Source: a virus. Taken from it: a DNA stretch of 36,162 nucleotides. The DNA lies in the IMG/VR virus record IMGVR_UViG_3300014325_000030, positions 1 to 36,162 of that record. One strand, given 5' to 3'. The notes under the pieces are model-generated. The model made no database searches and was not told where the DNA came from. It saw nothing but the letters and a program-made list of their open reading frames with translations. Below are positions 16,886-32,544 of this stretch, one piece after another (within the stretch, counting starts at the first letter, position 1; every line of letters begins with the position of its first letter). The position numbers and the translations under genes were made by a program.

Positions 16886-17415
16886 AGCGCCTCCAGGTCC
16901 TGCCGCCGGTACCGCCGGCCCCGCTGTTTCACTTCCCCCGCCGCGACCGCCGCCCGCAGCTCTCGCGCCGAGACGCCGGCGATCGCGAGCGCCGCGGCCC
17001 GGTCCACGTAGGCCGCCCGTGTCTGGGATGTCTCGGACATCTGTCGCAGGGCGAGCGCGACGGCGTGCAGGAGGTCGGCGCCCGGCGGGATATCACGATT
17101 TCGTGATAATTCGATCGCTGCCGCGCTGCTGTGCCCGTTGCCACTGACCGGGGAGGTCACACCCGGCGGCAGGACGAACGCCCGGGCCTCTGTACGCCGC
17201 TCAGACGCGAGCCGGGCGACGTCGTCGGGGTGATAGACCGCCCGCACGGGCCCGCGGCCGTGGGGCTGTCTGGCGCCCTGGTGGATCTTGCCGGCGGCGG
17301 CCAGGCGTTCGATCGTTTTCGGGGTCACGCCGAGGGCGGCCGCGGCCGCGTCCTTAGTCAGCCAGTCGGCATAGACATCGCCCGATGTCTCAGACGTTCC
17401 ACGTTCCACAGTCAT
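16882..17415 (-). CDS. MerR/excisionase-like HTH protein
   Basis: This 177-residue protein starts at ATG 17415, 6 bases after AAGGA. Residues about 18-65 form a winged-HTH (LTKDAAAAALGVTPKTIERL, then a YHPDDVARL wing end). The C-terminal part holds a second HTH-like segment (AALAIAGVSARELRAAVAAG with GRRYRRQDLEAL), so the protein may have two DNA-binding domains. It contains two copies (17019-17040, 17384-17400) of the dispersed 22-base palindrome, one in each half. Probable role: regulator or replication/recombination accessory. Excisionase is possible but it is far from the integrase. Confidence 0.7.
   Translation of the reverse strand: MTVERGTSETSGDVYADWLTKDAAAAALGVTPKTIERLAAAGKIHQGARQPHGRGPVRAVYHPDDVARLASERRTEARAFVLPPGVTSPVSGNGHSSAAAIELSRNRDIPPGADLLHAVALALRQMSETSQTRAAYVDRAAALAIAGVSARELRAAVAAGEVKQRGRRYRRQDLEAL
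17019..17040. repeat. Dispersed 22-base palindrome, copy A
   Basis: Matches the consensus GTGTCTSNGAC followed by its inverted copy, with two or three departures. Coding, in the HTH gene (encodes MSETSQT). Confidence 0.55.
17384..17400. repeat. Dispersed palindrome, partial copy B
   Basis: GATGTCTCAGACGTTCC, an almost complete left half plus centre of the same palindrome. The right half is lost. It encodes GTSETSGD near the start of the HTH protein. Confidence 0.45.
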
Positions 17416-17518
17416 TGAGGATCCTTGGCAGAAGGGACGACGGACGACGACGACGATGGTTCGCGCCCCGCTCCGCTTTCCCGGCGTTGGGCATGGGGAT
17501 CTCCGCGAGAGGACCGCA

Positions 17519-17731
17519 TCAGGCCCGCTCCCCTCGCTGCCAATCACGAAAGAAATCCTCTATCGCTCGGTTGATGAGGGCTTCGATCGTGATGCCCGCT
17601 GCCGTCGCGTACGCCTGCATGTCGAGCCACAACCCGGGCGGCGGAGTGAAGTCGAACGATTCGCCTGTATCGCCCAAGTGCACCACGATCGTCGGCGGGC
17701 CGTCGTCGTCGGCTTCGAGTATTTCGGCCAT
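17519..17731 (-). CDS. Small hypothetical protein with hydrophobic helix
   Basis: The 70-residue protein starts at the ATG that overlaps the preceding TGA (TGATG). An acidic N-terminus with a beta-hairpin (PTIVVHLGDTGESFDFTPPP) is followed by LWLDMQAYATAAGITIEALI and a helical tail. The TIEALINRAIEDF segment resembles the end of ribbon-helix-helix or CopG-type proteins, so DNA binding is possible but uncertain. A 103-base gap without a gene follows to the next start at 17415. Confidence 0.6.
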   Translation of the reverse strand: MAEILEADDDGPPTIVVHLGDTGESFDFTPPPGLWLDMQAYATAAGITIEALINRAIEDFFRDWQRGERA

Positions 17732-17988
17732 CAATGTGCCTCGCTGATGACCATGCCGCTCTGCCGCAACAGCGCCTTGATCGCGTCCTTCGTCTTCTCG
17801 TGAAACACCACGACGTGGGAGACGTCGGCGAACCTGACGCCTGCCGGCGGTTGCGCGAGTAGGGTCATACCGGGTTGCGCCCGCAGGTAGTTCAGGCCGG
17901 TGTCTGTGAGCCCGATCATCACCACTTCGCGATCGTCGCCGTCCTTGCCATACGCCCACACGATGTGTTCGTTCTTGATGTCAGCCAT
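17731..17988 (-). CDS. Hypothetical early protein
   Basis: The 85-residue protein (begins MADIKNEHIVWAYGKDGDDR) starts 4-5 bases after AGGTAGG. Strands VVMIGLTDTGLNYLRAQPG and VSHVVVFHEKTKDAIKALLR suggest a ferredoxin-like alpha/beta fold. It precedes the 70-residue gene by a TGATG overlap. About 73 bases of gap separate it from the upstream gene. No family is recognised. Confidence 0.6.
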   Translation of the reverse strand: MADIKNEHIVWAYGKDGDDREVVMIGLTDTGLNYLRAQPGMTLLAQPPAGVRFADVSHVVVFHEKTKDAIKALLRQSGMVISEAH

Positions 17989-18061
17989 CGACCTACCTCG
18001 TTGCGGTCGCGGTACCTGCGTCGTCCAGTCGTCCGAGGGCGCGCATCAACTTCGTCGTCGG

Positions 18062-18289
18062 TTACTTCGTCGTCGTCCGTCGGCCCTTCTTCGCCACCGC
18101 CGCCACCCGTGCCGCCTGGCGCAGTGCGTCGCGCTGCCAGCCGAGGCAGCGATAGGCGCGCCGGCTGACCGACTCGAGCACAATCCCGTCGGCGAGATGT
18201 TGCATTTCGACCTGGTCGACGTCGATCGTGTAGATCGGCCGGCGGCGAACGGTCACGCCGAGCGGCCGCCGGGTGTTCTTCGCGGTCAC
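18062..18289 (-). CDS. Small basic hypothetical protein
   Basis: This 75-residue protein starts with GTG overlapping the upstream TGA (GTGA). It is rich in Arg/Lys, with IYTIDVDQVEMQHLADGIVL and a helix ending RVAAVAKKGRRTTTK. The basic C-terminus suggests nucleic-acid contact. No motif is recognised. Confidence 0.6.
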   Translation of the reverse strand: MTAKNTRRPLGVTVRRRPIYTIDVDQVEMQHLADGIVLESVSRRAYRCLGWQRDALRQAARVAAVAKKGRRTTTK

Positions 18290-18462
18290 GTTTGCCCCAC
18301 GACGACGAAGCGCGCGCGGATCGTCCACACGGCGTGCGACGCGATCCCTTTGATGTAGGTCCACTCGTGCGGCGCCCACCCTGCCGGCGGGGCGACGGTG
18401 TCGCCATTGGCGAGCTGCAGCACGAGGAGCTCGAGGCCTTCGGCGATGCGATCGCGCGTCAT
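18286..18462 (-). CDS. 58-residue hypothetical protein
   Basis: It begins MTRDRIAEGLELLVLQLANG and ends ARFVVVGQT, with a Trp-containing middle (WAPHEWTYIKGIAS). Both ends overlap neighbours: its ATG lies in the preceding TGA (ATGA) and its TGA lies over the next GTG. The double overlap is the best support for it. Confidence 0.6.
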   Translation of the reverse strand: MTRDRIAEGLELLVLQLANGDTVAPPAGWAPHEWTYIKGIASHAVWTIRARFVVVGQT

Positions 18463-18692
18463 ACTTCACCGGCCGACGCGAACGCCTGAATGTAGGCGTC
18501 GACGCCGCTCTTACTCGGGACGATGCCCCGCGCGCGTCCCTCAGTGAGAATCTGATCGCAGCGAGCGACGTCGACGACCGGGCCGCCGGTGATCAAACCG
18601 TATTGCCGCGCGCTGTCGACGAGCAGGCAGGCCTCGGCTATGTTGACCGCGGTTTGCCACTCGGCCGGCGTCTTGGGGTCGCGGGTCTTCAT
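18459..18692 (-). CDS. Hypothetical early protein
   Basis: This 77-residue, mainly helical protein (WQTAVNIAEACLLVDSARQY, CDQILTEGRARGIVPSKSGV) overlaps the J-domain gene upstream by ATGA and the 58-residue gene downstream. The PSKSGVDAYIQAF end is regular. The function is unknown. Its place next to a J-domain gene may mean a shared role in early takeover. Confidence 0.6.
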   Translation of the reverse strand: MKTRDPKTPAEWQTAVNIAEACLLVDSARQYGLITGGPVVDVARCDQILTEGRARGIVPSKSGVDAYIQAFASAGEV

Positions 18693-19390
18693 GGCAGGGG
18701 CGCCTCGGTTTTGAAATACGCGCGGGCCGCGTCGCGGGCCAGGTTGAGCCGCACGACGGCGTCATGGCTGCCGCCGTTGTCGGGGTGTCGCTGTTTCAAG
18801 AGCGCGCGGTACCGCGCCTCGACGACCTCGAGGGTGATCGGATGGTCGCCGGGTTTGAAGTCCATTTCCGCGCGCCAGTCGCCGCCCTGCGTGCCGCCGA
18901 CGGCCGGGAGCGCCGCATAGCCGGCAAACGCCTGATTGAGATCCCCGATGCCGTAGCGTTCGATCCGGCGCAGCGCGTCGATGTGTTGCGCGATCGCCGC
19001 GATGTTGTCGGCGACGCGCGTCCACTTGTCGCAGGCCAGGACGCGCGTCTGGCCGTTGAGGGTGAAATACACCGCGGCGCCGACGTCGGTCGGTTCTCCG
19101 CGATCCGATCGGGGCGTGCCGTCGAGGCGCAGCTGCAGGCTCGTGCTCAGTTTCGCGTCCTCGGCGCCCAGCCGATCAAGTTCGGCCTCGAGCCGGGCGG
19201 CGGCGTCGGCGGCTGAGAGGGGCGCTTTACTTTTCCGCGTCTTGGTTTCCGGCGGGCGTCCGTCGTAGTGGCGCTCGACGTACGACTTTTCGATCGTCTT
19301 CCCGAAGTCGGCGCGCTGCCGCTCGCTCGCGGGCGTGCGCGTCCAGCCGAGTGGCCAGGAGAGCGGATACCGTCGGACGGTGTCACTCAC
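18689..19390 (-). CDS. Phage J-domain (DnaJ-like) protein
   Basis: The 233-residue protein ends in a J-domain core: helix RYRALLKQRHPDNGG with the HPD triad at residues 202-204, then DAVVRLNLARDAARAYF. The HPD loop is what stimulates Hsp70 (DnaK) ATPase. The N-terminal 60 residues (YPLSWPLGWTRTPASERQRA) form a motif seen in a phage family of J-domain proteins. The middle has a small beta/alpha part. It likely recruits host DnaK, perhaps for replication initiation or capsid assembly. The first 40 residues and the C-terminal J-domain are the reliable parts. Confidence 0.82.
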   Translation of the reverse strand: MSDTVRRYPLSWPLGWTRTPASERQRADFGKTIEKSYVERHYDGRPPETKTRKSKAPLSAADAAARLEAELDRLGAEDAKLSTSLQLRLDGTPRSDRGEPTDVGAAVYFTLNGQTRVLACDKWTRVADNIAAIAQHIDALRRIERYGIGDLNQAFAGYAALPAVGGTQGGDWRAEMDFKPGDHPITLEVVEARYRALLKQRHPDNGGSHDAVVRLNLARDAARAYFKTEAPLP

Positions 19391-19593
19391 TTCGGCAGCT
19401 CCCAGATCTCATTGCAGCCCGGGCAATAGACCCAGCCGGCGCCCTTCGTTCTCGAGGGGCGTTGGCCGGTGCGGCCGCACGCGGGACAGACGGCCGCGGT
19501 GATCTTCACGGCTTCGGCGCGGTTCGTCGGGAGTTTCATCATCGAGCGCTTGCCGGCGGGCTTGAGGCCCATCTTGGAGTTGATGCTGGTCAT
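19387..19593 (-). CDS. Zinc ribbon protein
   Basis: This is a 68-residue protein with CPACGRTGQRPSRTKGAGWV followed by CPGC, a four-cysteine zinc ribbon, and a short C-terminal NEIWELPK. The basic N-terminal 30 residues (KPAGKRSMMKLPTNRAEAVK) could bind DNA or RNA. It overlaps its neighbours on both sides by ATGA, in front of the J-domain gene. Confidence 0.7.
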   Translation of the reverse strand: MTSINSKMGLKPAGKRSMMKLPTNRAEAVKITAAVCPACGRTGQRPSRTKGAGWVYCPGCNEIWELPK

Positions 19594-19901
19594 GCATGGA
19601 CCGCCGTTTCTTTGTCGCGTTGGTGGAGACGTCGCTCGGCGGCTTGCCAGGCCTCGGTCATCTTGCGCAGTTGGTATTTCAGGGCGGCGATCTCGGCCTG
19701 TGCCGCGTGCACGTCGCCCCTTTGAGCCGAGACGGTCGCGACACGTTTCGCCGCCTCGATGAACGTCAACAGGGTCGACGCGTCGCTCAACGACAGCGTC
19801 GCTCCTTCCGCGTGCTCAGTGGCGGCAATGAGCCGCTCGATGATCGCCGTCACGTGCGAGCGTGGCCGGAGGACGGATCGAAGAGCCCCGCGGTGCGTCA
19901 T
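19590..19901 (-). CDS. Coiled-coil hypothetical protein
   Basis: The 103-residue protein starts at ATG 19901, 4 bases after GGGGGAG. It is basic at the N-terminus, then helical throughout (SDASTLLTFIEAAKRVATVS, AQAEIAALKYQLRKMTEAWQ), with heptad spacing over residues 45-95, so a coiled-coil dimer is likely. No motif gives a function. Confidence 0.65.
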   Translation of the reverse strand: MTHRGALRSVLRPRSHVTAIIERLIAATEHAEGATLSLSDASTLLTFIEAAKRVATVSAQRGDVHAAQAEIAALKYQLRKMTEAWQAAERRLHQRDKETAVHA

Positions 19902-20059
19902 CGTCTCCCCCTGCGATGCACGCGGCGCCGGAGTCTCGGATGGATCCAGGGCGTCGACCAGTACACGCGGTGCGCGGGGACCGTCCAGCACAGCGCGCGG
20001 CCGTTGACCAGGCGGCTGTAGACGGCGCGGCTGATGTCGATCCGGTGATAGTGGGTCAT
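19898..20059 (-). CDS. Small basic protein after initiator gene
   Basis: The 53-residue protein starts at the ATG overlapping the preceding frame's TGA (ATGA). It begins MTHYHRIDISRAVYSRLVNG and ends in an Arg/His-rich tail (HPRLRRRVHRRGRR). Strong positive charge suggests nucleic-acid binding. Its own stop overlaps the next ATG. Confidence 0.5.
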   Translation of the reverse strand: MTHYHRIDISRAVYSRLVNGRALCWTVPAHRVYWSTPWIHPRLRRRVHRRGRR

Positions 20060-20991
20060 CCGGTTTTTCTCCCCTGCTCGAGCCCGCGGCGCAGCGCGTC
20101 GGCGAGTTGGCCCCATTGCGGCGTCGGACGTTCAGCCGGTTTCGCGCCGACCGGCGTGTTCACATCCGCGAGGAGCCCGAGGCCCGGTTGCGTTGGTCCC
20201 ATGAGCGCGCGGGGTCGCTCAGGGCTTTCAGCGCCCGCAGGATCTGGTCCGGGTCGTAGTGAAACCCGAGCGCTAGGTGCCGGACCTTGATCGCTTCGAG
20301 CCGACTGCTGTAGTCCGCTTCCACGGTCGGCAAGGTCTGGATGATGACCACCGTCTGCGCAAAGGTCGGGTGCTGGAGCGGCTGATTGCGGCGCATCGGC
20401 GTCCTCGCGGGTTTCGTCGTCGGGGTGTTCGAACAACCCGGCGCGCAGCGCGGGTGCACTTGGGATCGGTTCTTGTACTGGGGATCTGTACGTACTGGGG
20501 ATCGGGGTGCCACTGGTGGCACTCAGATCGCGCGGTTGGGTGTCAACGGTGGCACTCAAATCGACGCCTTGGGTGCCACGGGTGGCACTCAACTGCGTGC
20601 CACGGGTGTCACTCAATTGAGTGCCACGGTTGACACTCAAATTTTTGTCACCCTGTGGAAAAGTCGTAGCCACCCCCCCGACCACCTTCGGCACCATCCA
20701 ATGCGGCGCGAGCCGATCGATCGCGATATCCCGCGCCGTCGCGTGGCGATGATGCCGCGTCCCAGTAATCCAGCCGCCGGCTTCCAAGCGCTGCAGCGAC
20801 CGGAGCACCGTCCGCCGCGGGAGTTCGGCGCGGGCACAGAGTTTCTTGACCGACACCCGCGCGCCCTTCCCGGTCTCGAAATTCGCGAAGGTCGAGAGGG
20901 CGCCGAGCACGAGCTTGTCGGTCGCGCAATGAAACCCCGTCGTCCACGTGATGCGCTCGGGCACCGACGCGTAGCCGCGATCGCCACTCAT
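20056..20991 (-). CDS. Replication initiator, O-like, with internal origin
   Basis: The frame is 311 residues. Residues about 15-90 form a winged helix of the phage replication-protein type (TDKLVLGALSTFANF, RVSVKKLCARAELPRRTVLR, SLQRLEAGGWITGTRHHRHA). The linker that follows is encoded by the iterons (repeats of LSATRGTQ). Beyond about residue 200 the frame looks like a shadow: low complexity, while another frame (20396-20160) has good coding character. So the true protein may end or shift frame there. By analogy with lambda O, the N-terminal domain would bind the iterons in its own gene and load the host helicase. A helicase loader was not found. Confidence 0.7.
   Translation of the reverse strand: MSGDRGYASVPERITWTTGFHCATDKLVLGALSTFANFETGKGARVSVKKLCARAELPRRTVLRSLQRLEAGGWITGTRHHRHATARDIAIDRLAPHWMVPKVVGGVATTFPQGDKNLSVNRGTQLSDTRGTQLSATRGTQGVDLSATVDTQPRDLSATSGTPIPSTYRSPVQEPIPSAPALRAGLFEHPDDETREDADAPQSAAPAPDLCADGGHHPDLADRGSGLQQSARSDQGPAPSARVSLRPGPDPAGAESPERPRALMGPTQPGLGLLADVNTPVGAKPAERPTPQWGQLADALRRGLEQGRKTG
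20160..20396 (-). CDS. Nested 78-residue protein or shifted C-terminus of initiator
   Basis: The ATG at 20396 follows GAGG by about 6-7 bases. The product has a convincing coding pattern: FAQTVVIIQTLPTVEADYSS, SRLEAIKVRHLALGFHYDPD, QILRALKALSDPARSWDQRN, with GC-rich third positions. The initiator frame, by contrast, is low-complexity over the same bases. It ends at TGA 20160, overlapping a GTG of a 34-residue continuation in the initiator frame (starts at 20163). Either it is a separate gene fully overlapping the initiator frame, or it is the real C-terminus reached by a +1 shift. No family is recognised. Confidence 0.6.
   Translation of the reverse strand: MRRNQPLQHPTFAQTVVIIQTLPTVEADYSSRLEAIKVRHLALGFHYDPDQILRALKALSDPARSWDQRNRASGSSRM
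20505..20660. other. Putative replication origin with iterons and AT-rich tract
   Basis: Five copies of a GGTGNCACTCA-type iteron lie in one direction. Their ACTCA cores are at 20521, 20554, 20587, 20611 and 20635, spaced 33, 33, 24 and 24 bases. Related GTGCCAC half-sites lie between them, including a perfect 14-base palindrome CACTCAATTGAGTG (20610-20623). Right next to the last copy is an AT-rich tract (CAAATTTTTGTC, about 20638-20649). Iterons plus an unwinding tract inside the initiator gene is the lambdoid origin layout. Confidence 0.72.
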
Positions 20992-21588: not shown

Positions 21589-21599
21589 CGTCTTCCCCC

Positions 21600-22060: not shown

Positions 22061-22341
22061 CGCTTGCCTCGACGTCGACGCAGCGCCGCGCGCACACGTC
22101 GATCGCCCACTCGGGCGTCGTTAAGGATGTCGCCTGGTCGACCGTATGATCGGCCGAGCGCGCAGCGCGAACAGAGATTCGGTTCCGCCCAGATGCACCC
22201 GCCCGGGCACCCGTCCTCGCTCGAGCAGCCGCACACGCGACAAATACCCTGGTCGGTCCACACGATTTTCCCGTCCGCGCGGATGGTCGGCGCGTCGGCC
22301 GCCGCGCGCTCGAGCCGGTCGGTCGCGTCCTCGATCGTCAT
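22057..22341 (-). CDS. Zinc-cluster phage protein
   Basis: The 94-residue protein starts at ATG 22341 (ATGA overlap). After a helical lead (MTIEDATDRLERAAADAPTI) it has GICRVCGCSSEDGCPGGCIW, then AEPNLCSRC: seven cysteines in a pattern I recognise from many phages (CRVCGCTD..CPGGC.WVE.DLCS.C), probably binding two zinc ions. The rest is basic (ARVGDRRVRAALRRRRGKR), which suggests nucleic-acid binding. The function of this family is unknown to me. Confidence 0.75.
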   Translation of the reverse strand: MTIEDATDRLERAAADAPTIRADGKIVWTDQGICRVCGCSSEDGCPGGCIWAEPNLCSRCALGRSYGRPGDILNDARVGDRRVRAALRRRRGKR

Positions 22342-22802
22342 CGCCGCCCGCCCGCGGATCTTCGGTTCACATAATCGAGCTTCTCGGATCCCGCTCGTCC
22401 GTCGAACGAATCCGCGCGTTTCACTTCCGCATGCGGAAGTGACCTTTCGCCGCGCGCCACGATCCGCAGGCCCAAGCCGTGCAGGAAGGACAACTGCCGC
22501 GGCTCGTACCCCGCCTTCAACATCCGCACGCGGACGGCCCGCAGCCGCGCCGGGCGATTGCGCGCCTGCACCTCCGCGCGCTGAATCAACACGCGCCGCA
22601 CCGCGTCGCGCCGGAAAATCCGCTGGCCGGATTCGGTGACCTCGCAGGGCAACTCGCGGGCCCGTGCGAGCCAGCGGACCCAGCGCGTCGACACGTCGAG
22701 CACCCGGGCGACATCCTCCGTCGTGAGCCACATCCGTATAGGCAGCGCGGCCCCGGCGTCCCTGTATCGTGTAGACCCGTCATCCTTTGCTAAAATACGC
22801 AT
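22338..22802 (-). CDS. MerR/excisionase-type HTH regulator
   Basis: In this 154-residue protein, residues about 24-72 form a MerR-like winged HTH (MWLTTEDVARVLDVSTRWVR, then GQRIFRRDAVRRVLIQRAEV). A long basic helical C-terminus follows. The start is ATG 22802 with weak Shine-Dalgarno (GAG); an alternative is the ATG at 22733. Its gene contains a perfect 22-base palindrome (22421-22442) related to the one at the Cro-like gene start. It may be an excisionase or an early regulator. Confidence 0.65.
   Translation of the reverse strand: MRILAKDDGSTRYRDAGAALPIRMWLTTEDVARVLDVSTRWVRWLARARELPCEVTESGQRIFRRDAVRRVLIQRAEVQARNRPARLRAVRVRMLKAGYEPRQLSFLHGLGLRIVARGERSLPHAEVKRADSFDGRAGSEKLDYVNRRSAGGRR
22421..22442. 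promoter_or_regulatory. Perfect 22-base palindrome, candidate operator
   Basis: Arms TCACTTCCGC (22421-22430) and GCGGAAGTGA (22433-22442) are separated by AT. It shares CTTCCGC...GCGGAAG with the palindrome over the start codon of the Cro-like gene at 24341-24360, with a shorter spacer (2 rather than 6). It is coding in the HTH gene here. It could be a binding site of one of the phage repressors, or a transcription pause hairpin. Confidence 0.5.
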
Positions 22803-25029: not shown

Positions 25030-25054
25030 AATGCTGCGGCAGATCGATTCATGA
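24815..25054 (+). CDS. Small helical protein before integrase, possibly shifted C-terminus of repressor
   Basis: The frame begins after a TGA near 24793. The first canonical start is TTG at 24815, with no clear Shine-Dalgarno; other starts are possible. The 79 residues have regular coding character (LIPFPRVREAAAYALALSAR, ERLGNLLQQLATKRPAVVFV, LENLVAEMLRQID). Its TGA overlaps the integrase ATG (ATGA), so it is translationally coupled to integrase. If the repressor frame shifts in the CTTCTTCCCC stretch near 24822, this would be its C-terminal domain. Confidence 0.55.
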   Translation: MLLLPHLAQLIPFPRVREAAAYALALSARWSRVSKAKPWRQPREPERLGNLLQQLATKRPAVVFVLENLVAEMLRQIDS

Positions 25055-26127
25055 CACCCCGCACGCGCACGCGTGTCGCCACCGGCATCTATCGCGATCG
25101 GTACGGCCTGGCCGCCACGGTGAAGGTTGGCGGCATTCAACGGGAGCACCGCTTTGCGCCCGACGAACCGCTCGACACGATCAAGGCGTGGCAGGCGCGC
25201 ACGCGCGCGGATCTGACCGACGATCGCGAGGAGACGCGGACGATCGATGAGCCGATCCCAGCGCGCGGGACGTTCGCGAGTGACCTGCCCCGCTACCTGA
25301 AAAAGATCGAGAGCCGCGCCAGCTACAAATCCGATCGTTCACATCTCTCGGCCTGGCTGCCGCTTGTGGGGCCGCTGCGGCGCACCGCGATCCGCCCCTC
25401 GCACGTCCGCGCGGCGTTCAGTGCGTGGGCGACGGCCGGGAAGAGTCCGCGGACGATCCGGCATCGCCGCCGCGTGTTGCGTGAGCTCTATCAGGCGCTC
25501 GACGGTGCGCACGCGCGGCCGCCGTTGAAAGGGGTGAAGGTGCCGAAGCCGGAGGATCCGCATCCGACCCCGGTCCCGCTCGCAACGATTCAGCGCGTCG
25601 CCGCGAGTCTCAAGAAAGGCAAGGCTGGCAAGCAGCGGTGCGGCCCGACGCGGAAACTCGTGCGCGTCCAGTACGCCGAGCCGGCGAAAGCGCGCGCGCG
25701 GTTCCTCGTCCGGGCGACGACGGGCCAACGGCCGTCGCAGATCATGCGCGCGAAACCGGCCGACGTCGACTTGGTGCGGCGGATCTGGTTCGTGCGGGCG
25801 GGCAAGGGCGGGCAGCCGATCCCGCTGCCACTGACGCGCGATATGGTGCGCGCGTGGAAAGCCTTCGCCGCGGCCGACGCGTGGGGGACGTTCGATAGTC
25901 GCAGTTTCAGCAAGACCCTGCGCCGGCACGGCTGGCCAAAGGGCGTGCGTCCGTACAACCTGCGGCACACCTTCGCGATCGATCACCTGCTGGCCGGCAC
26001 GCCGATCGGCGATCTGCAGGGCCTGCTCGGCCATCGCCAGATCGAAACGACGCGCAAGTTTTACGGGCCGGTGCTGCTCGCGCGGCTCCGGAAAATGGTC
26101 GGGCGGCGCACGCTCAAGCTCGCCTGA
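25051..26127 (+). CDS. int: Tyrosine integrase
   Basis: The 358-residue protein has an N-terminal arm-binding part (MTPRTRTRVATGIYRDRYGL), a core-binding helical domain and a catalytic domain. Catalytic residues visible: Arg-I R227 in TTGQRPSQI, Lys K252 in GKGGQPIPL, R305 and H306 in PYNLRHTFA, H328 in LLGHRQ, and nucleophile Y338 in TTRKFYGP. The usual first His of the HxxR motif is Tyr302. It lies directly before the attP site, oriented towards it, as in most phages integrating into tRNA genes. It catalyses site-specific recombination between attP and the host tRNA-fMet gene. Confidence 0.93.
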   Translation: MTPRTRTRVATGIYRDRYGLAATVKVGGIQREHRFAPDEPLDTIKAWQARTRADLTDDREETRTIDEPIPARGTFASDLPRYLKKIESRASYKSDRSHLSAWLPLVGPLRRTAIRPSHVRAAFSAWATAGKSPRTIRHRRRVLRELYQALDGAHARPPLKGVKVPKPEDPHPTPVPLATIQRVAASLKKGKAGKQRCGPTRKLVRVQYAEPAKARARFLVRATTGQRPSQIMRAKPADVDLVRRIWFVRAGKGGQPIPLPLTRDMVRAWKAFAAADAWGTFDSRSFSKTLRRHGWPKGVRPYNLRHTFAIDHLLAGTPIGDLQGLLGHRQIETTRKFYGPVLLARLRKMVGRRTLKLA

Positions 26128-26264: not shown

Positions 26265-26311
26265 TGGTTGCGGGGGCGGGATTTGAACCCGCGACCTTTG
26301 GGTTATGAGCC
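26265..26311 (-). other. attP: attP core: 3' half of tRNA-fMet (anticodon CAT)
   Basis: Read on the minus strand, about 47 bases run from the last two bases of the anticodon stem through loop CTCATAA, CCCAA, variable loop AGGTC, T-arm (GCGGG/CCCGC), acceptor CCCCGCA, discriminator A and CCA. The three C's after the anticodon loop and the A72 in the acceptor are initiator tRNA features. Upstream of this the sequence does not continue as a tRNA, so it is not a complete gene. It is the part of host tRNA carried by the phage to restore the gene after integration. Confidence 0.85.
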
Positions 26312-26366
26312 TATGCCGCGTGCCCGACGCTGACCGAATTTCGGCGCGTTTTTCGGCGTGGAGACG

Positions 26367-26428: not shown

Positions 26429-26749
26429 ATGTTGCTCGCACTCGCCAAGAAGCTCCGCGCCGACGCCATCAAAGCCACGCCCGACACCGGCCCCTATCCG
26501 GTCGGCACGCTCACCCTGATCGAGCTCTACACCCAGCCCCGCTACGGCGAGATCAACGGCGAGCTCGTGCGCGTCGAGGGCGAGGGGAACATGGTCGGCT
26601 TCTCGCCGGTCACCAAATGCGTCGACGCGCACGGGGAGACCGCCTGGATCCCGACCGACCTGGTCAAGAACATCAGCCTCGAGCCGTTCACCTTCGTCAC
26701 CGGCAACACGACGCGCGGCCGGACGCCGAAGAACCTGACCAAGACGTAA
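26429..26749 (+). CDS. Hypothetical protein beside attP
   Basis: The 106-residue protein starts at ATG 26429 with GGAGG 8 bases upstream. A basic helix (MLLALAKKLRADAIKATPDT) precedes a compact beta-rich part (VGTLTLIELYTQPRYGEING, VDAHGETAWIPTDLVKNISL). No motif is recognised. It is rightward and lies between the arm sites and a terminator-like pair of hairpins, a single-gene unit. It might be expressed from the lysogen, but the sequence does not prove this. Confidence 0.65.
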   Translation: MLLALAKKLRADAIKATPDTGPYPVGTLTLIELYTQPRYGEINGELVRVEGEGNMVGFSPVTKCVDAHGETAWIPTDLVKNISLEPFTFVTGNTTRGRTPKNLTKT

Positions 26750-26760
26750 GACCCGCCATT

Positions 26761-26815
26761 CTGCATTTTGCCAATGCAGCTTCGGGCCGTGTCGCAGACG
26801 TCTGAGACACGGCCC
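26761..26815. terminator. Two hairpins between convergent genes
   Basis: Hairpin 1: CTGCATT (26761-26767) and AATGCAG (26773-26779). Hairpin 2: GGGCCGTGTC (26784-26793) and GACACGGCCC (26806-26815), whose loop holds the centre of the dispersed palindrome (AGACGTCT). Convergent genes end on both sides, so it likely works as a bidirectional terminator. No long T-run is visible. Confidence 0.6.
26789..26810. repeat. Dispersed 22-base palindrome, copy C (non-coding)
   Basis: GTGTCGCAGAC followed directly by GTCTGAGACAC: one mismatch from a perfect palindrome. It lies in the intergenic terminator region and is the only copy clearly outside a gene. Confidence 0.7.
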
Positions 26816-26818
26816 CCG

Positions 26819-27536: not shown

Positions 27537-28351
27537 GCAACCGCCTGACGCGCGGCGGCCGGCTTGCGTTGACGCGCGCGAAAGGCTTGCTCGTTCGCAT
27601 ACGTCCACTCCCAGAGCGCCCGCGTCGCCAGGAACACCGGCAGCAGCTCCGCGCGGGCCGGCACGTCGACCGGCTCGAAGGGCGTCGGGTCTGTCTCGTC
27701 CTTGCGCAGCCGGACGACGAGCGATCGCACGGGCTCGAGGTAGCCCATTTCCTCGAGCGCCGCGCTGTACGCCGCGGCCTGCAGGTGACTCTCGCCGTAG
27801 ATCGCTTTGCCGGTCTTGAAATCGACCATCGTCAGCACGCCGTCGACGCGTGCCAGGAGATCCAGGGTCCCGGCATAGCGCCGCGTCTTCGAGTAGACGA
27901 TCCGCTCGATGAGCACCGGCTTGAGGCGGACACTCGCCGCCCACGCGCGAAATGCCTGCACCGCGACGAGCGCCGGCGCCGTGATGTAGGGCTCGGGACC
28001 GGCCTGCGCGCCGATCGCCGTCCGCATGATCCACTCGATCGCTTTGTGCGCCTGCGTCCCGATGTCGCCGGCCTTCTCCATCGTGCGCTGATGCGCTTTG
28101 ACGGTTCCGAGGCGCGCGTGCAGCTCGGTGAGGTACCACGAGGCCGGGAATTTCTGCCCCGTGGTGTCGAGTTCCTCGTAGAGCGCCGCGGCGGCCGCCG
28201 TGCAGGCCTCGCGCTCCACCTTCGCCGCCCACGGCACGAGCGCCGGCTTGTTGATCGCCGTGAGAATATGCGTCACGGAGGGGTAGAGTTCGCCGTCGAC
28301 TTCGTAAAACCGTCCGCTCGGGCCGTCGCGCCGCGTGACCTTCGCGGTCAT
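27533..28351 (-). CDS. PD-(D/E)XK exonuclease, Cas4/RecB-like
   Basis: The 272-residue protein has the RecB/Cas4 nuclease core: GDIGTQAHKAIEWIM (His102), YAGTLDLLARV (Asp164), LTMVDFKTGKA (Asp177, Lys179) and the HLQAAAYSAAL (QxxxY, Gln191/Tyr195) motif. No four-cysteine cluster of Cas4 is seen. Such nucleases make 3' tails for phage homologous recombination and pair with single-strand annealing or binding proteins. The OB-like protein directly upstream is the natural partner. Both are in one operon with ATGA overlaps. Confidence 0.85.
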   Translation of the reverse strand: MTAKVTRRDGPSGRFYEVDGELYPSVTHILTAINKPALVPWAAKVEREACTAAAAALYEELDTTGQKFPASWYLTELHARLGTVKAHQRTMEKAGDIGTQAHKAIEWIMRTAIGAQAGPEPYITAPALVAVQAFRAWAASVRLKPVLIERIVYSKTRRYAGTLDLLARVDGVLTMVDFKTGKAIYGESHLQAAAYSAALEEMGYLEPVRSLVVRLRKDETDPTPFEPVDVPARAELLPVFLATRALWEWTYANEQAFRARQRKPAAARQAVA

Positions 28352-28806
28352 CGGCGGCCTCCATCCTGCAGATCGATTTCGAGTTCATCGGTGAAGATCG
28401 CCGGCACGTTGGATGAGTCGACCCACCGGATCGACGTCGCCCGCGTGTCTGCGACGTCCGAGACACGGCCGCGCGCCGACGTTGCGGCGACGGGCGCCTT
28501 GATCCGGATGACGTCGTGTGTTTTCTTGTCGAACGTCGCCGTCGTCGCGTAGAGGGTGACCGCGACGCCCGCCCAGCGTTCGGTGAGCGGCGAGCCCGCA
28601 ATCTCAGTGACCGTCTGCGCGTTGGTCTTGTTCAGGAGCAGACCCTTCGTCTTCCCGGTGAAATACAGGACCGCCTTGGTGTCGGTCTTGACGCGGTTGC
28701 GGACCTGCTCGACGTCGACGCGCGCGATCGTGACCGTCGGGGATGTGCCTTTCAGCTCGTGCGCCTTGAGGAACTTCGAGGGGAAGAGATCGTTGATGTT
28801 CGCCAT
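28348..28806 (-). CDS. Recombination-associated ssDNA-binding-like protein
   Basis: The 152-residue protein (begins MANINDLFPSKFLKAHELKG) has YFTGKTKGLLLNKTNAQTVT, the K.KGL.LNKTNA..I pattern of a phage protein family next to RecB/YqaJ-type nucleases. Alternating strands suggest an OB-like fold. It carries a copy of the dispersed palindrome (28445-28466) in its Ser/Asp linker (VSDVADT). It lies between the zinc finger protein and the nuclease. ssDNA binding is inferred from context and not proven. Confidence 0.65.
   Translation of the reverse strand: MANINDLFPSKFLKAHELKGTSPTVTIARVDVEQVRNRVKTDTKAVLYFTGKTKGLLLNKTNAQTVTEIAGSPLTERWAGVAVTLYATTATFDKKTHDVIRIKAPVAATSARGRVSDVADTRATSIRWVDSSNVPAIFTDELEIDLQDGGRR
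28445..28466. repeat. Dispersed 22-base palindrome, copy D
   Basis: GTGTCTGCGAC followed by GTCCGAGACAC. Near-palindromic, coding for VSDVADT (minus strand) in the ssDNA-binding-like protein. Confidence 0.65.
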
Positions 28807-28808
28807 GG

Positions 28809-29252
28809 CTATGCCGCCTCCGGCGTGACGGGTGTCTCGGACGTCTCAGACTCGGCCGCCGCGAGCTCGCGATCCACGCGCGCGTTGTCGGCGAGTGCCG
28901 CATCGAGCCGCCGGCCCGTCGACGGCGCCGCGAGGAACGTGCGAAAGGTCGCGGGAAACGGGAGCCGGCTGCGCAGGACCTGGACGCGCTCGATCGACGC
29001 CATCAGGGTCCAGCCCTGGCCCATCAGCGCGACGCAGAGACTGATCTCGCTCGGCGTGAGCTGCGGCGTCGCGGGCCGGGCCGTCGCCATCGTCAGGCGG
29101 CGTTCCAACATGGACGTGTGCGCGTCGCGGCGGTCGCTGCACGCGTCGCACAGCGTGCCGAGGTCGTGGTCCGCGCGGGAGAAATCCGCGCTGCAGTCGG
29201 TGCAGGTGGCGTTCGGGCGGTCGTCGTCCTGGTAGGTGTCGGGGCTGAACAT
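28809..29252 (-). CDS. Zinc finger protein, first gene of recombination operon
   Basis: The 147-residue protein starts 6 bases after GAGG. It has NATCTDCSADFSRADHDLGT followed by CDAC, a four-cysteine zinc site in the first 40 residues. Then comes a helical part (SEISLCVALMGQGWTLMASI, RVQVLRSRLPFPATFRTFLA) and an acidic, Ala-rich tail with SETSET (palindrome copy E, 28832-28853). It is the first gene after the two leftward promoters at 29.4 kb, hence well expressed. DNA-binding is possible. Confidence 0.72.
   Translation of the reverse strand: MFSPDTYQDDDRPNATCTDCSADFSRADHDLGTLCDACSDRRDAHTSMLERRLTMATARPATPQLTPSEISLCVALMGQGWTLMASIERVQVLRSRLPFPATFRTFLAAPSTGRRLDAALADNARVDRELAAAESETSETPVTPEAA
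28832..28853. repeat. Dispersed 22-base palindrome, copy E
   Basis: GTGTCTCGGAC followed by GTCTCAGACTC. Lies at the 3' end of the zinc finger gene, 380 bases from copy D. Confidence 0.65.
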
Positions 29253-29382
29253 CGGGAGCCTCTTTCGTGGCTGGCTGGCTCCCCCTTACACTCTGGGTAG
29301 CCCGCTTGGCCGCTTACTCGGTTGACGGGTTAGGCGTCGTTCGGTGTGCAACCACCGGGCGGCGCCGTTTACTCACTCACCT

Positions 29383-29411
29383 AATATACAGCAATGCTGT
29401 ATGTCTGTCAA
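29383..29411 (-). promoter_or_regulatory. Leftward sigma-70 promoter P1 with operator O1
   Basis: Minus strand: TTGACA (29406-29411), 17-base spacer, TATATT (29383-29388). The perfect 17-base palindrome ATACAGCAATGCTGTAT (29386-29402) covers spacer and -10. It would drive the zinc finger and nuclease operon. The consensus match is excellent. Confidence 0.8.
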
Positions 29412-29442
29412 CCCCTCTTGTGTGGCGCGCGGCAGGCTTCGT

Positions 29443-29472
29443 TTGACGCCTCATACAGCAATGCAGTACGCT
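29443..29472 (+). promoter_or_regulatory. Rightward promoter for HTH gene, probably leaderless
   Basis: Plus strand: TTGACG (29443-29448), 18-base spacer, TACGCT (29467-29472). The ATG at 29481 would be at about +1 to +3, and no Shine-Dalgarno precedes it. Operator O2 lies in the spacer, so the regulator may repress its own gene. Confidence 0.5.
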
Positions 29473-29478
29473 CGTCAA
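29450..29478 (-). promoter_or_regulatory. Leftward promoter P2 with operator O2
   Basis: Minus strand: TTGACG (29473-29478), 17-base spacer, TATGAG (29450-29455). ATACAGCAATGCAGTAC (29453-29469) is a degenerate copy of O1 in the same place. P2 lies 67 bases upstream of P1. Confidence 0.65.
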
Positions 29479-29480
29479 CC

Positions 29481-29675
29481 ATGACGATTCGCGACGAGGT
29501 GCGGGCGCTTCGGACCGCGCTCGGGGAAAACCGGGCGACGTTCGGCGCGCGGTGGCACCGCACGGGTCGGACCGTCGAAACCTGGGAGCAGGGGTTACGT
29601 CAGCCCGATCCGCTCGTGCTCGAGGGGATCCGAAAGCTCGCCGCCCGCACAAAGACTCGAAAGTCCGCAAAGTAG
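29481..29675 (+). CDS. XRE-type regulator of the recombination operon
   Basis: This 64-residue single-domain HTH protein reads EVRALRTALGENRATFGARW, HRTGRTVETWEQGLRQPDPL, VLEGIRKLAARTKTR. The T-V-E-T-W-E-Q-G helix is typical for XRE proteins. Divergent from the recombination operon across a region with two copies of its probable operator, it is likely the repressor of those promoters. The start ATG has no Shine-Dalgarno. Confidence 0.75.
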   Translation: MTIRDEVRALRTALGENRATFGARWHRTGRTVETWEQGLRQPDPLVLEGIRKLAARTKTRKSAK

Positions 29676-29688
29676 AAGGAAGGACTAG

Positions 29689-29883
29689 ATGAAACAGAGC
29701 GATCCGGTCCCGGACGACAAGGCCTGCTCGCGGTGTGGGCGGCGCTTGGTCTGGCTCGGCACGGGCGCGAAGCACAATCTGCCTGGGGACATTGAGGCCG
29801 AAGGCCTGTTCCGATGCCCTGATGACCACGAACTTTGGTCGTACGCTCCGACCTCGCAGACGTGGCGTCGTGAGCCACAGTGA
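29689..29883 (+). CDS. Small zinc-binding protein
   Basis: The 64-residue protein starts 4 bases after GGAAGGA. It has KACSRCGRRLVWLGTGAKHN and LFRCPDDHELWSY, with three cysteines plus His as possible zinc ligands. Its TGA overlaps the GTG of the next gene. The role is unknown. Confidence 0.65.
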   Translation: MKQSDPVPDDKACSRCGRRLVWLGTGAKHNLPGDIEAEGLFRCPDDHELWSYAPTSQTWRREPQ

Positions 29884-30158
29884 GCGAAGACAGCCCGCCC
29901 TACGGTGCGGACGTCCGACGGGTGCCTGAGTCCCCCGACTTCGATCAGATCGCGCGCAGGCTCGCGGACATGCCCGACGCCGACGACCAGGTCGAAGCCA
30001 TCGCCGAGCAGCTCTGTCTCGTCTGGAACGCCCGCGGCGCCGCCGATCTCGCGAAGGTGGACGCCGAACTCTCCATGATGATGGGCGCGACGATGGCCGG
30101 GCCCTACGTGAAGAACCTCGATCGCGCGCTCCGGAAGTTAGACCGCCCGTCCGTCTAA
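29880..30158 (+). CDS. Helical hypothetical protein
   Basis: The 92-residue protein starts with GTG overlapping the preceding TGA (GTGA). It is almost wholly helical (FDQIARRLADMPDADDQVEA, VDAELSMMMGATMAGPYVKN). It is acidic and likely a small dimer. No function is recognised. It is followed by about 60 bases before the glycosyltransferase frame. Confidence 0.6.
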   Translation: MSEDSPPYGADVRRVPESPDFDQIARRLADMPDADDQVEAIAEQLCLVWNARGAADLAKVDAELSMMMGATMAGPYVKNLDRALRKLDRPSV

Positions 30159-30219
30159 CCCTCGTCGGCTTCTCCGTTCATCCCCCGCGCACCGTGGACC
30201 CATCGTCGGTGGAAAGTGA

Positions 30220-31635
30220 TCCTCGCGCAAAACCCTCTCGCGGCTGCCCTTCACCGCGCGCGATCTCGCTCTCGTCCTGGCGGGGCCGGTCCTCCTCTGG
30301 GCGGCGTGGCGGCATCTCCTGGCGTGGTACATCGTCCGGCGTCTGTCGTACAACGACTTCGCGCGGTTCTACGCCTCCGCGCAGGCGTGGCGCGCGGGCG
30401 GCTCGCTGTATGACTCGACCTGGGCGACCGTCGGGCTGGTGCGCGGCCAGGCGATCGCGTTCGTCAATCTGAACCCGCCGCACTTTGAGCTCCTCCTGCT
30501 GCCCCTCGCGCCGCTGCCGCTCGCATCCGCCTACGCCGTCTGGGCCCTGCTGAACGTCGCGGGGTTTGCCGTGGCGGCCGGGATCGTCGTCCGGCGGCTC
30601 CAGCTGCGGCTCTCGGGCGGGCCGCTGCTCCTCGCGATCGGCGCGACGCTGGCCGCGACGCCGGTCACCGGCTGGGCGGCGTCGGCGCAGGTGACGGGCC
30701 TGGTCGCCGCGCTGTTCGCGTGGATCTGGCTCGCGCTCGAGGATCGTCGCTGGTCGCGCGCCGCTGTCGGGATCGGGATCGCGTGGAGTCTCAAGCTCCT
30801 GTTTGCGCCGGCGGTGATCTGGCTGCTCTGGCGCCGGCAGTACCGCGCGGCGGCGATCGCAGTCGTGACGGGCTTGAGCTGCTTTGCCGTCGGGCTCGCG
30901 GTGTTCGGCTGGCCGGAGCATCTCGCCTGGCTGCACGCGCTGTCCTCGGTGACCTGGGGCTGGTACTCGGTGAATAGTGCGCTGGCCGCGATTCCGGCGC
31001 GGATCGTCTACATGCGCAGCGGCGCGCTCGTGAATCCGCCCGGGCTGCCGGCCGCGACGATCCTCGGCCTGGCGATCGCGGCGCCGGTCGCGCTCGTCGG
31101 GACGTGGCGCGCGGCGACCGATCCCGACGCGTCGCGCGGCTGGCTGCTGTTGCTGCTGACGTGCCTGTTGTGTTTCCCGGCGTCGTGGATCGAGTACTGG
31201 GTCGTGCTCGGGCCGCCGGCGATCGCGTGTTGGCAGGCGCGCACGGTCCGGCGGCCGACGCTCTGCGCGGCGCCGGCGTGGTGGGTGCAAGCGTCGTGGA
31301 TCTATCCGTACACGTCAATGCTCGAGGCGGTCACCCTGGGGTCGGTCTATACGTGGTGTCTGCTGGTGTGGTGGATCGGCGTCGCGTGGCGATCAGCGCC
31401 CGTCGTCGCGCCCGCGCGGCCGATCGCGCCGCTGATGCTCCCCGACAAACATCTGGCCGCGCGCATCGTCGAGGTACTCCCGCGCGGCCTGGCGACACCG
31501 GCGGATCGCCTGGTCGGTGTCGTGGTCGAACCCCTGCAGGCTGTCGGGCCAGATCTGCTGTTGCACGCCGTTGGCGGTACTGGGGAGCGCGGCGAGCACG
31601 AAAAAGTCAAACCCTTGATCCGGCATCGCGAGTAG
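30220..31635 (+). CDS. GT87-like membrane glycosyltransferase, start uncertain
   Basis: The open frame of 472 codons contains NDFARFYASAQAWRAGGSLY then the NPPHFELLLLPLA motif typical of GT87 (DUF2029) mannosyl/arabinosyl-type transferases. About ten hydrophobic segments follow. The Asp in NDF and the NPPH motif are the usual family marks. The first canonical start (GTG 30439) would remove the Asp motif; upstream only CTG (30244) exists. A frame change in the AAAA run near 30230 could join it to a GTG at 30194. The 3' part (from about 31393) overlaps a minus-strand gene. Likely role: adding sugar to host envelope or phage glycan (lysogenic conversion). Confidence 0.65.
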   Translation, partial: SSRKTLSRLPFTARDLALVLAGPVLLWAAWRHLLAWYIVRRLSYNDFARFYASAQAWRAGGSLYDSTWATVGLVRGQAIAFVNLNPPHFELLLLPLAPLPLASAYAVWALLNVAGFAVAAGIVVRRLQLRLSGGPLLLAIGATLAATPVTGWAASAQVTGLVAALFAWIWLALEDRRWSRAAVGIGIAWSLKLLFAPAVIWLLWRRQYRAAAIAVVTGLSCFAVGLAVFGWPEHLAWLHALSSVTWGWYSVNSALAAIPARIVYMRSGALVNPPGLPAATILGLAIAAPVALVGTWRAATDPDASRGWLLLLLTCLLCFPASWIEYWVVLGPPAIACWQARTVRRPTLCAAPAWWVQASWIYPYTSMLEAVTLGSVYTWCLLVWWIGVAWRSAPVVAPARPIAPLMLPDKHLAARIVEVLPRGLATPADRLVGVVVEPLQAVGPDLLLHAVGGTGERGEHEKVKPLIRHRE

Positions 31636-31668
31636 CGCGGCGAGCAGGTGCCGGCGGCGTTTCTTCAT
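31393..31668 (-). CDS. Small hypothetical protein, end of late operon 2
   Basis: The 91-residue protein (begins MKKRRRHLLAALLAMPDQGF, then DFFVLAALPSTANGVQQQIW) has helical segments and a basic tail. Its codons have GC-rich third positions, and its start overlaps the upstream gene by ATGA. It overlaps the 3' end of the glycosyltransferase frame on the other strand by 243 bases; at least one end is probably shorter in reality. No family is recognised. Confidence 0.6.
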   Translation of the reverse strand: MKKRRRHLLAALLAMPDQGFDFFVLAALPSTANGVQQQIWPDSLQGFDHDTDQAIRRCRQAAREYLDDARGQMFVGEHQRRDRPRGRDDGR

Positions 31669-31895
31669 GCCCAGCGATCCGTGCGCCCGATCGGCTCGGG
31701 CAGTTTGACGACCTGATCCGCGTACGCGTTGAAGTAATCGATCGGGACCGCGACGGCGCGCCGCTCGTTGGCGCGGATCCGCACCTGGACAAAACAGGTG
31801 GCCTCGTCGATCGCCGAAATCGTGCAGTCCACCGTCACCCGATCACCCAGGCGCAGCGCGACGCCGTGCCGATCGACGCAGCGGGCGCGGCTCAT
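31665..31895 (-). CDS. Small beta-rich hypothetical protein
   Basis: This 76-residue protein starts at the ATG overlapping the PAP2 stop (ATGA). GVALRLGDRVTVDCTISAID and CFVQVRIRANERRAVAVPID suggest a small SH3- or OB-like barrel. A helical end carries NAYADQVVKLPEPI. The first residues (MSRARCVDRH) are basic. Its own stop overlaps the next gene. Function unknown. Confidence 0.65.
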   Translation of the reverse strand: MSRARCVDRHGVALRLGDRVTVDCTISAIDEATCFVQVRIRANERRAVAVPIDYFNAYADQVVKLPEPIGRTDRWA

Positions 31896-32371
31896 GCCCC
31901 ACACCGCAGCAGATGCCCGGCGCCCTCGGCCGCGATCCCGAGCAGCGCGCCGGTGAGGACCTGCGTCGGGGTGTGGCGGTGCGCCGTCGTCCGCAGGATC
32001 GCCGTCGACCAGGTGAAGCCGACGCCGAGCCGCCAGCTCGAGGCAAACCCGATCGTGCTGTTCATGGTGTGGCCGGACGGTTCGCCGTCGGGTGTGCAGC
32101 CGAAGCAGGGCCGCGGCGAGACGATGAAATGCTTGAGGGTGATCACGGCGACATTGCCAACGGCTTCACTGATCGCGAGCTGCCCGAGCTTGCACGCGCG
32201 GTGCGGCGACCGCCAGGCGGCGATCGCGGCGACCGTCGGATTGACGAGCGCCGTGCCGTAGCTCAGACGATCGGCCCAGGGTTCGACCGGCGGCGGCTGC
32301 GCCTGGACGACGGGCGCGAACAGGAGCAGCGCGAGTAGGACCGCCGATATACGTTTGACGGTATATCGCAT
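31892..32371 (-). CDS. Exported PAP2-family phosphatase
   Basis: The 159-residue protein starts at ATG 32371 with a signal peptide (MRYTVKRISAVLLALLLFAP, cut after VQA). The PAP2 motifs are present: KHFIVSPRP (Lys80, Arg87), EPSGH (Ser99-His101) and RTTAHRHTPTQ (Arg127, His133). The final Asp that normally helps the nucleophilic His is Gln137. PAP2 enzymes remove phosphate from lipid-linked carriers such as undecaprenyl pyrophosphate. Near the GT87-like gene, a role in envelope sugar or peptidoglycan lipid metabolism is possible; activity is uncertain because of the Gln. Confidence 0.8.
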   Translation of the reverse strand: MRYTVKRISAVLLALLLFAPVVQAQPPPVEPWADRLSYGTALVNPTVAAIAAWRSPHRACKLGQLAISEAVGNVAVITLKHFIVSPRPCFGCTPDGEPSGHTMNSTIGFASSWRLGVGFTWSTAILRTTAHRHTPTQVLTGALLGIAAEGAGHLLRCGA

Positions 32372-32544
32372 CAGTAGCTCGAGCGGTTCCACGCGTCGAC
32401 CATCATCGGGACGAGCGGATCGGGGCAGCCCGCGCGACTCTTCATGTTGTCGACAAAGGGCGGTGACGGCGGTCCGCCCTGCCACGGACGGAGCGGCGTG
32501 TCTGAGACGTCTGCGACAGGCGTCGGACTCGAGTTCGTCGTCAT
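32371..32544 (-). CDS. 57-residue protein with palindrome copy F
   Basis: It begins MTTNSSPTPVADVSDTPLRP and ends in a Met/Trp-containing tail (MMVDAWNRSSY). ADVSDTP is coded by copy F of the dispersed palindrome (32498-32519). Its TGA overlaps the PAP2 ATG (TGATG), and its own ATG lies over the stop of the preceding gene. No family is recognised. Confidence 0.6.
   Translation of the reverse strand: MTTNSSPTPVADVSDTPLRPWQGGPPSPPFVDNMKSRAGCPDPLVPMMVDAWNRSSY
32498..32519. repeat. Dispersed 22-base palindrome, copy F
   Basis: GTGTCTGAGAC followed by GTCTGCGACAG. Coding (ADVSDT) in the 57-residue gene. About 3.6 kb from copies D and E. Confidence 0.6.

Follow-up and report, generated by a model that had tools for sequence, protein, structure and literature searches.

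The DNA studied here, referred to as the window, spans 36,162 bases and constitutes a single virus record of IMG/VR (IMGVR_UViG_3300014325_000030; 68% G+C). Its genes include those for a P22-type portal, a major head protein, a terminase, a tyrosine integrase, a PD-(D/E)XK exonuclease and an XRE regulator. A 22-base palindrome with the pattern GTGTCNNNGACGTCNNNGACAC is dispersed in this record, and two of its sites, at 17019 and 17384, are held by the minus-strand gene at 16882-17415, which encodes a protein with two winged helix-turn-helix (HTH) domains. The original prediction had placed copies at 17019, 26789, 28445, 28832 and 32498 and a partial copy at 17384; all these positions were correct when checked on the sequence. 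The features concerned are the following (lengths in base pairs, bp, or amino acids, aa).

16882 to 17415, minus strand: two-domain winged-HTH protein, 177 aa, with an N-terminal HTH_17/BldC-like domain, a disordered linker and a C-terminal Xis-like HTH domain.
17019 to 17040: degenerate site (3 mismatches to the 18-bp core) in the middle of the gene, between its HTH domains; encodes MSETSQT.
17387 to 17395: 5'-end site of the HTH gene, consisting of a single exact 9-bp unit, GTCTCAGAC.
17396 to 17409, minus strand: degenerate parS-like palindrome GTTCCACGTGGAAC with 3 mismatches, at the 5' end of the HTH gene; conserved with the relative G031.
26789 to 26810: dispersed site, intergenic, 3' of the gene at 26429-26749; position conserved in G031.
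28445 to 28466: dispersed site within the phrog_21613 gene (28348-28806, minus strand), in its C-terminal linker; encodes VSDVADT.
28832 to 28853: dispersed site in the C-terminal tail of the gene at 28809-29252 (minus strand); encodes ESETSET.
32498 to 32519: dispersed site, probably in a 57-aa open reading frame (32371-32544, minus strand), otherwise intergenic; encodes VADVSDT.

The copies at 26789 and 28445 have no mismatch to GTGTCNNNGACGTCNNNGACAC, those at 28832 and 32498 have one and that at 17019 has two, while the pattern read backwards gave no match in the window. Four copies (26789, 28445, 28832 and 32498) are near-perfect, one (17019) is degenerate and one (17384) is a half-copy; the last, called partial before, is a half-site consisting of the single exact unit at 17387-17395. 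The reading frame at 32371-32544, within which the 32498 copy probably lies, has an ATGA overlap with its upstream neighbour; it was not called by two gene-calling runs, one of which lists the copy as intergenic. If 32498 falls in this frame, 26789 would be the only clearly intergenic copy.

The sites had been described as too regular for chance, and the counts agreed: five sites were found within three mismatches of the 18-bp core GTCTSAGACGTCTSAGAC, against a mean of 0.02 and a maximum of 1 in 100 order-3 Markov sequences and none for the reversed pattern. A codon-preserving shuffle, the test named in the original prediction itself, upheld this for the genes at 28809-29252 (4 of 2000 shuffles) and 28348-28806 (31 of 2000) but not for the HTH gene; because 594 of 2000 synonymous shuffles of that gene match as well, the degenerate 17019 copy is unremarkable alone. 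When palindrome families were searched for without a given motif, using 22-bp and 26-bp windows, only this family and an iteron cluster at 20504-20640 beat all 30 Markov sequences. With 18-bp windows neither of them topped the highest Markov score, and the unweighted search returned G+C-rich palindromes only. Among other dispersed palindrome families in six relatives, only G+C-rich low-complexity palindromes reached or passed the null scores, in places.

The repeat unit is the 9-bp odd palindrome GTCTSAGAC, two units of which abut. In some other phages there are three units, or the 22-bp symmetry is broken by a non-palindromic junction, GTCTGAGAAGTCTGAGAC; the common feature is therefore the 9-bp tandem unit and not the 22-bp palindrome. 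Two or three abutting units were found at the HTH gene in 19 records of G type (GTCTSAGAC), six of T type (TTCTSAGAA) and two of C type (CTCTSAGAG).

Scanning for the strict 22-bp pattern in viral sequences yielded one further contig (L001), and a slightly stricter form was found in 18 stretches among 84,980 prokaryote genomes, each in a different genome. The 18-bp core occurred in 27 stretches from 25 viral records of IMG/VR. A homologue of the window HTH protein is encoded in 19 of these 27 stretches and in 20 of the 25 whole records. Near-copies exist among the motif records (G013/G021, G011/G020 and G016/G030), so that the lineages are fewer than 25.

The sites recur at two places in the gene. 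Of the 20 motif records that have the gene, 14 show, when three mismatches are allowed, two sites separated by 347-430 bp, the first at the 5' end and the second between the HTH domains; the remaining six have a single site at the gene, and the spacing in the window is 365. Of the 35 records with the gene that were compared, 21 carry exact 9-mers at both places; for the 19 records of G type the count is 16. The three G-type exceptions are the window, in which the 5' unit is exact but the mid-gene copy degenerate, and G009 and G012, in which only the mid-gene unit is exact; the N-terminal half of the gene is missing from the G012 record. The mid-gene site is exact in 14 of the 19 G-type records and within one mismatch in 18, and encodes MSETSQT or close variants; these exact sites cannot be counted as independent, since it was by the motif that 18 of the 19 records had been picked. 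The serine codon TCT at the mid-gene site (35 of 38 in the 19 records, compared with 10 of 154 at other positions of those genes) was discounted for the same reason.

The set of 35 records leaves out G021, a close copy of G013, and four motif records without the gene (G011, G016, G026 and G030); G020, also without the gene, was loaded but is likewise not among the 35. Near-copies remain in it, for example G033/G034 and G041/G042. Five records (G010, G012, G022, G031 and G044) are without their last 63-2131 bases and four (G040, G041, G043 and G045) comprise the HTH locus only, and counts away from the gene are partial for these nine because ends or flanks are not covered.

A protein-profile scan identified 34 loci. 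Half of these (17) lay on contigs known from the motif scan, and the other 17 were new. Fourteen of the new ones were taken on as records; L077 and L091 (scores equal to those of L076 and L090) and L101 (a weak, short match) were left out. Five of these protein-only records (G033-G037) carry TTCTSAGAA units at both places, two (G041 and G042) carry a CTCTSAGAG unit at the 5' end, and seven have neither. By eye, repeats of the CCGCCA/TGGCGG type stand there instead in G039, G043 and G046, less clearly in G038, and GGTCCGACA repeats are present mid-gene in G003. A motif-free test for words shared between the 5' and mid-gene regions was positive in six of the 14 protein-only records (G033, G034, G035, G036, G037 and G039; the longest shared word reached by at most 17 of 400 random pairs) and negative in the other eight, as well as in the window (382 of 400). 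Among the records with repeats seen by eye, this test supports G039 only.

The outer base of the unit varies with one residue of the protein. The residue after the conserved Glu in the recognition helix of the first domain, Arg37 in the window protein, is Arg in 18 of 18 G-type records, window included, and Gln or Ala in eight of eight T- or C-type records; no case of Arg with T or C, nor of another residue with G, was found (Fisher 6.4e-7). The C-terminal domain did not track the type when compared by eye, L048 and L049 (G-type) being very similar to L076 and L078 (T-type). Profile alignment with the BldC structure 6ama places residue 37 on the Arg of the BldC sequence KTVTR, which by its spacing to Lys26 we infer to be Arg30. 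For BldC, each protomer is described as bound to one 9-bp direct repeat, with Arg30 making bidentate contacts to G, and the R30A variant is described as giving no saturable binding (PMC5859096). These results show that the motif co-occurs with the gene, has recurrent positions within it and changes with residue 37.

The window protein matched Pfam HTH_17 (2.7e-9) as well as phrog_2474 and phrog_66, and HTH_17 was found in all 19 members of the protein alignment. Against the PDB, the family profile A1 aligned with Pukovnik Xis (4j2n) over the C-terminal domain (E 1.2e-4) and, weakly, with BldC (6ama) over the N-terminal domain (E 0.04). Both domains were predicted with confidence in the structure model and the linker with low confidence (predicted template modelling score, pTM, 0.40 overall), and a Foldseek fold search returned BldC (6ama, E 0.09, probability 1.00) and Pukovnik Xis. 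No tblastn match to two family members was found in 50,697 deposited phage records. Distant homologues (25-32% identity) are encoded on eight cyanobacterial plasmids, and in seven of these the match spans 80% or more of the query. A promoter and terminator scan at 17300-17700 found none, and Rfam gave no match in the window.

Full-length two-HTH homologues are present on small plasmids of Nostoc and Anabaena (L161-L165). The mid-gene repeat was not seen in the five cyanobacterial plasmid homologues that were read; four homologues from Nostoc plasmids have, by eye, CTCGCCAA repeats directly before the start codon. Upstream of the HTH gene, at a distance of about 2-6 kb, most of the compared loci have an O-like replication gene; one protein cluster there, identified through its member in the window, is represented in 18 of 20 loci. 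Two relatives have a Ku gene of the bacterial type (PF02735) a few kb from the HTH gene: L072 at 13891-14718 (2.2e-33) and L078 at 13003-13965, minus strand (1e-31).

Copies away from the HTH gene were counted in the 19 G-type records, where 15 type-G pairs within three mismatches occur in 660 kb, against 2 for the reversed pattern. Four of these are in the window, three each in G009 and G027, two in G024 and one each in G008, G022 and G031. They lie mostly at or near gene starts, gene ends, linkers and short gaps, with exceptions such as those within the portal gene of G024 and its counterpart in G027. The sites common to these two records fall within the P22-type portal gene and close to the start of the gene that follows it, which is scaffold-like in G024; the G027 counterparts were matched by peptide only. 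G031, the HTH protein of which is 62-64% identical, retains both the equivalent of the 26789 site and the flank of that site, on the 3' side of the corresponding gene, which is 75% identical; the DNA around it otherwise aligns poorly.

At 28445 the palindrome is missing from relatives that have the exonuclease and phrog_21613 genes and no G-type HTH gene, and the window protein encoded at 28348-28806 is longer by 9-18 residues at the palindrome than its relatives without it. Comparing homologues with and without the palindrome, as had been proposed, left one possible insertion, the length difference at 28445; positional conservation was seen for the sites in the HTH gene and for 26789. Under a looser 22-bp pattern with up to three mismatches, the relatives sharing the exonuclease showed weak copies at 7 places, distributed over 6 records, where the reversed control gave 3; for L020 the figures were 1 and 0.

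A second element, GTTCCACGTGGAAC with mismatches, is found just upstream of, or overlapping, the 5' site of the HTH gene. GTTCCACGTGGAAC is the core of the Myxococcus xanthus parS consensus TGTTCCACGTGGAACG as published (PMC3899335). The form GTTYCACGTGRAAC occurs within one mismatch in 18 of 35 HTH 5' regions, against 0.33% of random 130-bp windows; the corresponding figures are 23 of 35 against 0.47% within two mismatches and 26 of 35 against 1.8% within three. Over 44 whole records, 44 places lie within two mismatches of the parS-like palindrome, compared with 11 for the reversed pattern, and 18 of the 21 places within one mismatch sit at the HTH gene; the perfect 14-mer was found in none of these records. 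The element accompanies every motif type. It could be read by host ParB, by the HTH protein's own second domain or by another regulator. In the open-licence literature, no paper combining parS, phage and "host ParB" was found. In G046, two parS-like elements (29698 and 30106) lie about 400 bp apart upstream of one HTH gene.

The window has several further features. About five near-palindromic repeats, spaced 24-33 bp (for example TTGGGTGCCACGGGTGGCACTCAA), lie at 20504-20640 within the O-like replication gene (20056-20991); this iteron cluster is likely a replication origin inside its own initiator gene. The antisense of a tRNA 3' half, with a CAT anticodon loop readable by eye, is found at 26265-26312 just downstream of the integrase gene and is likely the attP core; ARAGORN reported no tRNA in the window. 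The gene at 14184-14402 encodes an Acb2/Tad1 hairpin domain protein (PF24729, 2e-10), 89% identical in G031, which is a likely anti-CBASS/Thoeris sponge. A GT87 glycosyltransferase (Pfam 2.9e-24) is encoded at 30439-31635 of this phage genome.

On these data we consider it probable that the palindromes are bound by a protein of the phage itself, the two-domain winged-HTH protein, those in its gene serving autoregulation and the few dispersed ones acting as operators or roadblocks. The N-terminal HTH_17 domain would read the 9-bp unit NTCTSAGAN', protomers or the two domains being placed next to each other on adjoining units, in the manner of BldC on its 9-bp direct repeats, and Arg37 would read the outer G of GTCTSAGAC. 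From the covariation and the homology we infer, with fair confidence, that the protein physically binds these units. Autoregulation of the HTH gene is proposed from the positions of the sites in it, the 5' site and the mid-gene site both being assigned this role. The copies at 26789, 28445, 28832 and 32498 would put other genes under the HTH protein, as operators or as transcription roadblocks; this role of the dispersed copies is the weakest step, because their number and place differ between phages.

A number of observations weigh against this interpretation. Residue 37 and the outer base changed in about three independent events on the tree, two of them on supported branches; all agree, and with so few independent changes a sign test cannot reach 0.05, the tree moreover having been built with the trait column left in. 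The Gln-type record G019 owes its place in the T type to a single exact unit, as its remaining units are mixed, and it has a type-G pair elsewhere in the record. Residue 37 is readable in 34 family records, eight of which lack any G, T or C unit at the gene. Dispersed type-G pairs are lacking in 12 of the 19 G-type records, and the eight T- or C-type records have a single dispersed pair of their own type (in G036). The gene family is absent from five of the 25 motif records (G011, G016, G020, G026 and G030), four of which have sub-cut-off matches to HTH_17 and one, G026, none. In the window, the mid-gene copy has drifted at synonymous positions (TCC, ACA, TCC) with the peptide MSETSQT kept, so that the constraint on this site may be on the peptide rather than on the DNA. 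The choice of 18 of the 19 G-type records by the motif counts on the same side, as does the weakness of the PDB matches, BldC being matched at E 0.04 by profile and no fold match having E below 0.001.

The possibility that the HTH protein is a recombination directionality factor (RDF), or excisionase, and the copies its Xis sites, as for phage 186 Apl or RdfS, was judged unlikely. Its profile and fold neighbours do include Pukovnik Xis and excisionase families, Apl is described as both an excisionase and a regulator that binds direct repeats (PMC7498355), and the tyrosine integrase gene (25051-26127) and the tRNA-like remnant (about 26265-26312) lie about 0.5 kb from the 26789 site. The HTH gene, on the other hand, is about 8 kb from the integrase, the copies at 28445, 28832 and 32498 and the in-gene pair are 2-9 kb from the remnant, and a second Xis-like HTH is encoded at 22338-22802. 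Excisionase sites cluster in the attP arms, and the distance of 26789 is far for such an arm. A segregation function, in which the HTH protein, its sites and the parS-like palindrome would anchor phage DNA to the host segregation machinery as a centromere, was given a small probability. The enrichment of GTTYCACGTGRAAC beside the gene, the identity of GTTCCACGTGGAAC with the core of the published parS consensus and the homologues on small cyanobacterial plasmids are in its favour; the 14-mer is nowhere perfect in the 44 records and has 3 mismatches in the window, the phage has an integrase, the part of the window proteins that was tested yielded neither ParA nor ParB, and one of the Nostoc plasmids has its own ParM.

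Reading of the sites by a factor of the host (a regulator, methylase or nuclease) appears similarly improbable. It would account for the five of 25 motif records without the HTH gene and for the parS-like palindrome with every motif type, as expected of a host-read site, but the 9-bp motif varies between phages in step with their own HTH residue and no genome among the 84,980 is rich in the strict pattern. The earlier suggestion of host-methylation or nuclease targets found no support and would not predict this change of motif. A mobile palindromic element inserting into phage genes, surviving where it can be translated, had been raised as well and is in our view very improbable. The copies do lie mostly in linkers, tails and gene boundaries, and the 9-18 extra residues at 28445 would fit an insertion. 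Against this, two places recur in one gene family across motif-bearing proteins 35-64% identical to that of the window, G024 and G027 share the portal-region sites and the window and G031 the 26789 site, the exact strict pattern hits only 18 stretches, each in a different one of the 84,980 genomes, and the motif varies with residue 37. The guess of repressor "stoperators" came nearer: sites of a phage HTH protein are what is now predicted, but they are near-symmetric and few, unlike strict stoperators.

If the sites are operators of the phage's own HTH protein, a broader idea, which we regard as doubtful, is that of a diversifying self-recognition module of uncultured soil phages. Such a module would comprise a two-HTH protein with its cognate site twice in its own frame, single recognition-residue swaps (Arg to Gln or Ala) between phages that change the address, a near-parS element possibly tying phage DNA to host ParB, and extra address copies genome-wide; its role might be that of a portable tag for immunity or identity. 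The specificity of the protein and its DNA address would then travel as one gene. On the main reading itself, the family would provide a natural series of protein-DNA specificity pairs among BldC/Xis-type proteins. Regulatory DNA would apparently be kept within coding sequence at two recurrent points, and the parS-like element poses the question of phage use of host ParB. In the open-licence literature consulted, neither GTCTGAGACGTCTGAGAC nor a phage family with the site twice in its own gene, switching with one residue, was found. Direct-repeat winged-HTH regulators (BldC, Apl) and self-repressing ones (RdfS) are already known.

Several known systems show partial resemblance. Chromosomal parS/ParB is resembled by the palindrome beside the HTH gene, which in 18 of 35 records differs from parS by one mismatch; here, however, it is imperfect in every record and in nearly all lies at one place, beside that gene. 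BstA/aba is described as a short DNA element overlapping the 5' end of the gene for the very protein that it affects, with cognate pairs in different phages; the similarity lies only in this arrangement of DNA within the gene. The aba element is reported as 63 bp long with CCCGCC end repeats, and the BstA family was not among the PHROG and Pfam matches of the HTH protein (no direct comparison with BstA was made). The stoperators of L5-type (cluster A) mycobacteriophages are described as asymmetric 13-mers, more than twenty per genome, oriented with transcription (PMC9283540). Two DNA-binding domains in the repressor (a putative one here) and sites genome-wide, many in short intergenic gaps, are common to both systems, whereas the predicted sites of the window are near-symmetric, 18-22 bp long and present in about five copies.

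The Xis/RDF proteins (Pukovnik Xis, RdfS and phage 186 Apl) belong to the same winged-HTH family; Apl is reported to bind direct repeats as excisionase and regulator, and RdfS to repress its own gene. The present protein differs in its 177-aa two-domain form, in the recurrent in-gene pair of sites and in that the sites are not centred on attP. With BldC of Streptomyces, a MerR-like protein binding head-to-tail, it shares an HTH_17-type N-terminal domain, aligned weakly by profile and fold, a 9-bp tandem unit (the targets here being predicted ones) and the Arg that, as Arg30 in BldC, aligns with Arg37 and here tracks the outer G. BldC is a small single-domain protein, whereas the phage-encoded protein of the window joins two winged-HTH domains in one chain, and its unit is nearly symmetric, is GTCTSAGAC instead of AATTnnnnC, and lies within the protein's own coding sequence.

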